DNA of 42,174 nucleotides from Candidatus Woesearchaeota archaeon (lineage in GTDB: Archaea > Nanobdellota > Nanobdellia > Woesearchaeales > UBA10216): positions 1 to 42,174 of the forward strand of contig JAGVYT010000044.1 in assembly GCA_018303115.1 (NCBI GenBank), given 5' to 3'. Under the pieces are notes generated by a model that did not search any database, had not been told where the DNA came from, and saw only the letters and a program-made list of their open reading frames with translations. Made by a program: the position numbers and the translations under genes. Positions 1-22,072 of the stretch are shown here, piece by piece. Each line of letters begins with the position of its first letter. Position 1 is the stretch's first letter.

Positions 1-181
1 GCTCAGAATCGTCAAAAATCAAAGATTTTTGAGCGTGCTCAGAAGCTTCGCTTCTGACATTTCCAGCTTGTGAAGTCGAAAGCAAGCGAAGCTTGCCATC
101 AGTCATAGACTAATGGAAATGCTCAGAAATAGCGCTTTCTGGCACTCAGAAACTGCTGTTTCTGATGATTCTGACATTTTA
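1..181. repeat. Family B stem-loop array, copy B1 (left end cut by window)
   Basis: A run of small inverted repeats separated by the words GCTCAGAA and TTCTGACAT. Visible hairpins: TCAAAAATC/GATTTTTGA (12-20/24-32), CAGAAGC/GCTTCTG (40-46/50-56), GCAAGC/GCTTGC near 82-96, CCATCAGTC/GACTAATGG near 97-117, CAGAAA/TTTCTG near 125-140 and CAGAAAC/GTTTCTG near 148-165. The whole is framed by GCTCAGAATC at the left and GATTCTGACAT at the right, so hairpins sit inside a larger palindrome. Positions 60-96 are the exact reverse complement of 22025-22061 in copy B3. There is no long open frame. It lies just past the stop codon of the minus-strand nucleotidyltransferase gene. Function unknown; a mobile REP/MITE-like element or a structured 3' region are both possible. 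Confidence 0.75.
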
Positions 182-14097: not shown

Positions 14098-14763
14098 ATG
14101 AAAGTTTCTGAACTGGAAGGAAAGATACCGCAGCAGCTGTATGATGTCATCTATTCTAACATGAGTGAGCTCAGGCCTGCACAGGCCAAATCAATCAAGG
14201 CAGGGCTGTTGGAAGGGGCAAGCCTTCTGGTCTGCACCCCCACCGCTTCAGGAAAAACGTTAATTGCAGAATTGGCAGCTTTGTCAGCAATACTTAACGG
14301 CAAGGGCAAGGCAGTTTACATTGTCCCTCTGAAAGCTTTGGCTTCTGAAAAATACAACGACTTCAAAAAGCGATACGGCAGCTTGATTAAAACAGCCCTG
14401 TCAATTGGAGATATTGACTCTTCTGACAGCTACCTTGCAAATTATGATTTGATAGTGTGCACTGCTGAAAAGCTTGACTCTCTGCTGCGCCACCATTCGC
14501 CCTGGCTCGGCTCTGTTAAGGTTTTAATAGTGGATGAAATCCATTTGCTTAACGACCCAAAGCGCGGCCCTACTTTGGAGCTTCTTATCACCATTCTGAA
14601 ACAGGTTCTAAAAAACATGCAGTTAATTGCCTTGTCAGCCACAATCGGAAACGCTGAGGAGCTGGCAGAGTGGCTTCAGGCAAAGCTGATTACCGATTCC
14701 TGGAGGCCTGTAAAGCTCCACCAGGGCATTTACCTAAATGATAGAATAGAATTTAAGAAATAA
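14098..14763 (+). pseudogene. Truncated Ski2/Hel308-like DEAD-box helicase (RecA1 domain only)
   Basis: The 221-residue frame has the first RecA-like lobe of a Hel308-type superfamily 2 helicase: Q-motif region LRPAQAKSI, Walker A TPTASGKT (47-54), motif Ia VPLKALASEK, DEIH (146-149) and SAT (180-182). It ends a few residues past the beginning of the lobe linker. Hel308 proteins are about 700 residues; motifs IV-VI, the winged helix and ratchet domains are missing, and no continuation exists in any frame downstream because a minus-strand gene occupies that DNA. TTTAAACC about 22-30 nt upstream suggests it is still transcribed. Without the second lobe, helicase activity is not expected; a regulatory or split-gene role is possible. 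Confidence 0.7.
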
Positions 14764-18666: not shown

Positions 18667-18803
18667 GCGTTTCTGAGGCTCAGAAACCTATGGCATCAGA
18701 AGCTAATGGTTCTGATGGTGCTCAGGAACTTATTCCTGACACAACAGAAACGCTTAAGCGTTTCCGAGTGCTCAGAAGCTTTGCTTCTGACATTTCTGAC
18801 ATT
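18667..18803. repeat. Family B stem-loop array, copy B2
   Basis: Five hairpins in a row: GTTTCTGA/TCAGAAAC (18669-18687), ATCAGAA/TTCTGAT (18695-18716), CAGGAA/TTCCTG (18723-18738), the perfect 18-bp palindrome GAAACGCTTAAGCGTTTC (18747-18764) and CAGAAGC/GCTTCTG (18773-18789), joined by GCTCAGAA and TTCTGACATT words. First and fourth hairpins share GCGTTTC, framing the array. It occupies the gap between the prs promoter and the broken Doc gene. No coding frame. Confidence 0.75.
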
Positions 18804-21912: not shown

Positions 21913-21926
21913 CTTTTTCTGGTCTA

Positions 21927-21989
21927 AAGAACCACCAGTCAAAGACTGGTGGGATTTACTTGTAATATTTGCATAGACTGGTGGTTCTT
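21927..21989 (+). repeat. Alternative (mutually exclusive) hairpin
   Basis: The arm AAGAACCACCAGTC (21927-21940) can pair 9 bp with GACTGGTGG (21944-21952) or 14 bp with GACTGGTGGTTCTT (21976-21989). The pairings exclude each other. It lies after the HisG-like operon and before the hisS promoter; it may be part of repeat B3 or a 3' regulatory structure. Confidence 0.6.
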
Positions 21990-21990
21990 A

Positions 21991-22072
21991 GTGCTCAGAA
22001 TTTTCCATCAGTCTATTATTGATAGCAAGCTTCGCTTGCTTTCGACTTCACAAGCTGGAAAATTCTGACATT
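21991..22072. repeat. Family B stem-loop, copy B3
   Basis: Outer stem CAGAATTTTCCA (21996-22007) / TGGAAAATTCTG (22056-22067), inner stem AGCAAGC/GCTTGCT (22024-22030/22034-22040), framed by GTGCTCAGAA and TTCTGACATT. Positions 22025-22061 equal the reverse complement of 60-96 in copy B1 without mismatch. Confidence 0.75.

Follow-up and report, generated by a model that had tools for sequence, protein, structure and literature searches.

A palindromic element of Woesearchaeales best read as an archaeal variant of REP/BIME-like mobile repeats, with in-frame copies inside genes

The window, a 42,174-nucleotide stretch of contig JAGVYT010000044.1 from a Candidatus Woesearchaeota archaeon (assembly GCA_018303115.1), carries arrays of small hairpins at three loci, 1-181, 18667-18803 and 21991-22072, to which a sequence-only reading had first drawn attention. 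The arrays are present at all three places as that reading described them, and as folded single strands of DNA they far exceed their shuffles in stability, with z-scores of -6.2 (1-181), -6.7 (18667-18803) and -6.9 (21918-22072) and 0 of 200 shuffles as stable. The description of some hairpins as lying within a larger palindrome was likewise borne out, at 1-178 and at 21993-22072. In the first of these, sequence and fold together indicate an expanded right-hand unit on the plus strand (1..178), in which the outer stem GCTCAGAATC (1-10) pairs with GATTCTGA (167-174), followed by the tail ACATT, and whose loop contains four or five smaller hairpins. The unit scan placed a unit hairpin on the minus strand at 11..34 (GCTCAAAAATCTTTGATTTTTGAC, as read on that strand) and, together with the pattern search, another on the plus strand at 37..59 (GCTCAGAAGCTTCGCTTCTGACA). 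Further along the plus strand lie a nested hairpin at 58..120 (CATTTCCA...TGGAAAT, containing GCAAGCGAAGCTTGC at 82-96; sequence and fold), a degenerate unit hairpin at 121..144 (GCTCAGAAATAGCGCTTTCTGGCA; sequence) and a unit-like hairpin at 145..165 (CTCAGAAACTGCTGTTTCTGA; sequence and fold). The core of the nested hairpin at 58..120 recurs on the opposite strand within 21993-22072. Since the contig starts at window position 1, and since contigs C4, C10 and C11 of the genome end or begin within copies of the 1-178 composite (C10 ends and C4 starts in one), the locus at 1-181 has been cut by an assembly break.

The second locus is an array of five hairpins on the plus strand (18669-18687, 18694-18717, 18720-18741, 18747-18764 and 18770-18792) with a second tail, TTTCTGACATT, the whole spanning 18669..18803. 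Related arrays are found on contig C18 of the same genome and at two loci of a sister species (L100 and L104 in G002). Compared with the sister-species arrays, the left hairpin of the window array is apparently truncated, and the array at L100 has, by eye, a further unit, about 35 bp long. The third locus, 21924-22072, probably forms a single large dumbbell on the plus strand. Its right hairpin (21993..22072, GCTCAGAATTTTCC ... GGAAAATTCTGACATT) was located by the unit scan and the fold and has a 13 bp stem and an inner hairpin at 22025-22039. The left hairpin (21924..21991, CTAAAGAACCACC...GGTGGTTCTTAG; sequence and fold) reads as a degenerate TGTCA-hairpin-TGAG with an expanded loop, and it is assigned to the same dumbbell by analogy with copies in genomes G063 and G044, where its intact-ended counterparts read TGTCAAGAACCACC...GGTGGTTCTTGAG and where the G063 copy (L148) retains the TGTCA...TGAG ends. 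A layout like that of 21924-21991 is also seen in the hairpin AAACAACCGCCGGTC-AGA-GACCGGCGG...GTTGTTT, which follows the sole Y1 transposase gene of this genome (L094, G000:C23:1-700). Elsewhere in the window, a 221-residue frame at 14098-14763 resembles, judging from its translation, the N-terminal part only of a Ski2-like helicase and is possibly truncated.

Copies from the same genome and its relatives follow a shared grammar, built on the hairpin GCTCA-(variable stem)-TGACA as its basic unit, and two such units are commonly joined tail to tail into a dumbbell, TGTCA-(stem 1)-TGAGC-AT-GCTCA-(stem 2)-TGACA. Most dumbbells measure 50-60 bp, the longer ones owing their size to expanded loops; these loops frequently house additional hairpins, and nested arrays result. 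CAGAA/TTCTG, which had been taken as the constant base of the hairpins, is merely the commonest stem base, and it is GCTCA and TGACA that are constant; the inner stem is free to vary. The stem starts as a rule with GAA or AAA, with AGAA, GGAA and AAACC also allowed, and in nearly all copies from this genome the inner bases are self-complementary while differing in sequence from copy to copy. In 166 hairpins, all drawn from strict dumbbells, in which the search pattern itself sets three base pairs (TCA/TGA), the pairs next to GCTCA and TGACA can be A-T or G-C. The first stem pair is A-T in 166 of 166, as the pattern dictates, and the second is G-C in 118 and A-T in 47. By the ninth pair the identity is free (C-G 80, G-C 40, T-A 20, A-T 7) and pairing is kept. 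Across these hairpins the outer stem pairs are 89-100% paired despite their differing sequences. In an alignment of 19 copies of 54 bases, 98.2% of cells are standard pairs and seven pairs have changed on both sides, giving a covariation score of 0.183 against 0.075 +/- 0.011 for shuffled alignments (a figure that is not to be read as a probability, because the copies are related); slid structures reach no more than 0.050. This covariation demonstrates that the hairpin has been kept. The dumbbell thus has fixed ends and a fixed centre, TGTCA, TGAGCATGCTCA and TGACA, common to many families, with covarying stems between them. Immobile palindromes, whose complementarity arises and is maintained through template switching at replication and whose copies spread by recombination only, would account for stems that pair so well while differing in sequence, yet this is the least probable of the explanations that we weighed, as it explains neither the fixed motifs shared across many families nor the clean insertion into unrelated genes described below.

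The element is far more widespread than the three loci in the window. The genome that carries the window (0.99 Mb in 45 contigs, about 96% complete) was surveyed by pattern searches and by inspection of the stretches around matches; the pattern GCTCAGAA-N0-30-TTCTGACA has 26 matches there and its reverse none, and TTCTGACATT has 41 against 4 for the reversed control. The genome-wide search proposed in the sequence-only reading therefore returned many more copies, and the notion that only the three loci exist is refuted both by these 26 units and by the copies found across the order and in GTDB. Single units were matched in 27 of 98 related genomes and strict dumbbells in 26 of 353 genomes of the order, with up to 25 copies per genome; neither control pattern had a match. 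Copy number is patchy even within one genus, from 0 units in G001 and 15 in G002 to 26 in the present genome, G000. Among the 84,980 species genomes of GTDB r220, the strict dumbbell occurs in 85 stretches, where far fewer than one chance match would be expected from the specificity of the pattern. Eighty-four of these lie in archaeal MAGs that bear the label Woesearchaeota, Pacearchaeota, Nanoarchaeota, Nanoarchaeia or simply archaeon, and outside such MAGs the pattern was found in a single contig, binned as Nomurabacteria (LBZW01000015, L252), which is either misbinned or the product of transfer. No strict dumbbell was found in the viral contigs of IMG/VR. All carrier genomes are MAGs, many of them fragmented. 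In Rfam, searched with the window and 20 element loci, the element matches no family, and the cut-offs were passed by tRNAs and a single RT-16 RNA only; that RNA (RF03019, E 5e-13) lies at L136:2722-2890 in G131, about 1.1 kb from a dumbbell.

Copies are mostly intergenic and show no preferred gene orientation. Of 82 dumbbells, 34 have co-directional neighbouring genes, 16 divergent and 14 convergent ones, whereas 12 lie within called frames, some of them perhaps spurious; the intergenic DNA available at the same loci amounts to 19.7, 9.5 and 6.5 kb for the three orientations, respectively. These counts are what neutral insertion predicts and not what terminators would give. The left and right flanks of a given dumbbell show higher mutual complementarity than re-paired flanks do (-8.45 against -6.45 +/- 0.39 kcal/mol, 51 non-redundant dumbbells), and an outer stem in fixed register adjoining the dumbbell was looked for and not found. 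The complementarity of the flanks places many copies within other palindromes, which would explain the nesting.

In three pairs of genomes (G305/G306, G301/G302 and G341/G342) larger, multi-branched composites recur with the dumbbell in their middle, always at the same place, so that the mobile unit there may be the composite. In G305 and G306 this repeat is about 280 bp long (CACAAAAATGTCGCC...dumbbell...GACCGATTTTTATG; L161-L169) and shows compensatory differences between the two species. In G302 and G301 (L170-L172 and L153) the repeat around the dumbbell has a constant core, CCACGC...GCCGGCAAGAAG...GGCCGGTTTCCGCTT...GAGCGGTGG, and a variable outer stem, and has no match in Rfam. In G342 (L174-L179) the core reads GGCGCAAACGGGCGAAG...CTGAGCCCGAG, a hairpin and then CGGTTTGCC, again with variable outer stems.

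In six genes, recognized as long open frames in three genomes, the reading frame runs through a dumbbell without a break. Four belong to one genome, G067, and encode GatE (L127), GatA (L128), GatD (L230) and a DUF371 protein (L119); the others are a gene in G069 named from its sequence as PEP synthase (L143) and one for an unassigned protein in G348 (L160). The elements measure 54, 54, 54, 54, 57 and 108 bp, the longest in GatD and one of 54 bp in PEP synthase, and every length is divisible by three. One frame, SE...SEHAQ...D, is used in all six copies (in GatA and its kin the peptide is SEIQRISEHAQKPLVFD), although a second frame on the sense strand is open in four of the six. Such in-frame reading suggests that the genic copies are translated as part of the host protein, and the choice of a single frame could reflect selection for a soluble peptide, as far as six cases allow this to be judged. 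In a few copies (L262:5141 and L169:1502) an ATG formed by A and the TGTCA of the dumbbell itself opens the frame MSE...SEHAQ and is a putative start.

It could be argued that the peptide is never made, and that the interrupted genes carry intron-like RNA which is removed from the transcript. Archaea do have bulge-helix-bulge introns, and the interrupted genes are conserved and essential. However, removal would demand neither lengths divisible by three, nor open frames, nor the choice of one common frame among those available, and the bulge-helix-bulge motif was not seen by eye. We consider this explanation very improbable, only marginally less so than template switching.

In G263, which belongs to the same genus as G069, the PEP synthase gene lacks the insert and thus provides an empty site. 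The two alleles each have 23 nt between the conserved blocks GGATTTT and CAAAATACC, the 54-bp element aside, so the net gain is 54 bp exactly and no target sequence is duplicated, the position of the cut being accurate to within a base or two because the flanking 23 nt have diverged. This is the one empty site read at the DNA level; GatA and GatD were compared at codon resolution with distant homologues. GatA shows a gap of exactly 18 residues against the solved homologue 3h0l_A, and GatD has 36 extra residues against 1zq1_A, which corresponds to its 108-bp element. GatE is compatible with insertion, the alignment being blurred at that place. Copies have thus been inserted precisely, with a gain equal to the element and, at the single site read at the DNA level, without target-site duplication. 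The lack of duplication and the hairpin form fit the logic of HUH-Y1 enzymes, by analogy with IS200/IS605 and REP systems.

A link to Y1 or RAYT transposases had been proposed on the strength of the REP/BIME-like layout, and our searches do not uphold it. Y1_Tnp occurs in 10 of the 26 dumbbell carriers searched; among near-complete genomes, it is present in 1 of 11 carriers, compared with 10 of 27 relatives overall. In none of 27 Y1 loci scanned does the unit form REPtron-like ends of the Y1 gene, and ends shared between the element and a Y1 transposase gene, as expected of an IS200/IS605-derived MITE, were likewise found in none of the 27. The Y1 transposase gene of G078 (L201/L203, G078:C112:10655-11084) is itself apparently interrupted by a unit hairpin, which recalls the REPs found inside tnpA-REP genes. 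IS110 (1 of 33 genomes tested) and TnpB/Cas12f (full-score TnpB in 2 of 33) were considered as partners and rejected, since neither correlates with the dumbbell. Among recurrent neighbour proteins none of the transposase kind is evident, and the largest cluster consists of proteins fused to the dumbbell peptide. None of RAYT, Y1 or IS110 tracks the element, and these searches found no mobilising enzyme.

The suggested resemblance to REP/BIME elements is confirmed in architecture, in that the element has an asymmetric hairpin unit, inverted dimers, clusters and a patchy copy number. It was also suggested that a constant base with variable cores is unusual, but this does not hold for REPs: a survey of the GTAG and CGTC types from 2013 reports sub-families in which complementary residues of the stem take alternative forms (PMC3733652). 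With the GTAG REPs and their BIMEs and REPINs, which are mobilised by RAYT (TnpA-REP), the element shares the asymmetric unit, inverted pairs (here the dumbbell of 26/353 genomes), clusters, patchy high copy number and the supply of stop codons to neighbouring genes (PMC6006769, PMC3733652). Unlike them, it does not flank a RAYT gene; the GTAG/GGAG tetranucleotide is absent beside the hairpin, the constant flanks being GCTCA and TGACA. The CGTC REPs, which include Neisseria dRS3 and Rickettsia RPE-4/RPE-6, have tags that may read TGTC and that lie outside in head-head dimers, intragenic dimers encoding about 20-30 amino acids, some dimers inside larger palindromes and no dedicated transposase (PMC3733652). 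Our element is like them in carrying TGTC at both outer ends of the dumbbell (set by the strict pattern, and seen also around copies found with the single-unit pattern), and in its outside tags, alternative complementary stem residues, intragenic units, larger palindromes and lack of an associated transposase. CGTC REPs are reported from five bacterial phyla, with no archaea named, and their stems start A-T, T-A and end in a CCA-like tail (PMC3733652), whereas the second stem pair here is G-C or A-T, the tail is GAGC joined by AT, and the hosts are archaeal; stem length, loops and nesting are also more variable here. Because of the different second stem pair, tail and hosts, we do not file the element as a CGTC REP.

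Two further systems can be compared by description. The Rickettsia palindromic elements are bacterial palindromes of 105-146 bp that lie in frame in conserved genes and encode a recurrent peptide (Ogata et al., 2000, as summarized in PMC2229807 and PMC10969869); the six in-frame insertions in conserved genes and the recurrent peptide SE...SEHAQ...D are similar, and the 50-60 bp archaeal dumbbell differs. Palindromic repeats of Methanocaldococcus jannaschii, some of which lie within coding regions and leave them unbroken (Suyama et al., 2005, as summarized in PMC2229807), resemble ours as archaeal palindromes partly in frame within genes. In layout, the element is best read as closest to the bacterial CGTC-tagged REPs and to the in-frame Rickettsia elements.

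The hairpin arrays are real and extend well beyond the three loci, and they are best read as a variant, hosted by archaea, of mobile palindromes of the REP/BIME type, some of whose copies lie in frame within genes. That the arrays are copies of a non-autonomous mobile palindrome of this kind, belonging to Woesearchaeales and other Nanoarchaeia, we regard as probable. The element would move as folded single-stranded DNA, with a putative enzyme acting in trans that cuts and joins at the TGTCA/TGACA ends by HUH-Y1-like logic. Stems could vary freely, since recognition would require no more than the hairpin shape and the ends. The element may tend to enter existing hairpins, including those of its own kind, and repeated rounds of such entry could have built the nested arrays of the window. 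A bolder proposal, which we put forward tentatively and at much lower confidence, is that the dumbbells represent a class of DNA transposon specific to Nanoarchaeia, whose putative single-strand recombinase would read hairpin shape together with the TGTCA/TGACA ends, and which would also equip core proteins, among them the amidotransferase subunits GatD, GatE and GatA of one host, with a standard 18-residue hydrophilic peptide.

Two other explanations deserve to be weighed against a REP/BIME-like mobile palindrome. First, the element could be a classical MITE mobilised by a DDE transposase that recognizes TGTCA/TGACA as inverted ends. These ends are indeed short, starting TG and ending CA, and dispersed composites are repeated in G305 and G306. 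The net gain in PEP synthase equals the element with no duplication and the gaps in GatA and GatD match its length, which argues against such an enzyme; moreover, both halves of the dumbbell fold into hairpins, each with covariation in its own stem, a feature for which a DDE enzyme working on duplex DNA would have no need, and no transposase-type protein family stands out among the recurrent neighbours. We consider this origin unlikely. Second, the hairpins could be functional RNA elements under selection, such as bidirectional terminators or stabilisers of 3' ends, and not mobile DNA. RNA folds of the element are stable (z -6.1 for window 1-181), and some copies lie a few bases from a stop codon or supply one (169-178 in the window, near the stop at 184; L125; L024). 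Divergent sites, however, are as common as convergent ones, in line with the available intergenic DNA, no T-run follows the hairpin, copies lie within the genes for GatA, GatD, GatE, PEP synthase and DUF371, and one genus holds genomes with none and with 26 units. A primary role in RNA therefore seems slightly less plausible still than a DDE-mobilised MITE.

In summary, no earlier report of this element, or of REP-like repeats in DPANN archaea, was found in the literature searched on palindromic repeats of Woesearchaeota and DPANN, in which subscription journals were thinly covered. As an archaeal counterpart of the CGTC REPs, alike in layout and in the enzyme that is missing, the element offers an independent handle on the mobiliser. 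These repeats break MAG assemblies, and they could be of use in joining contigs and in telling strains apart. The copies in GatD, GatE, GatA, PEP synthase and DUF371 amount to natural experiments on the tolerance of core enzymes for inserted peptides.
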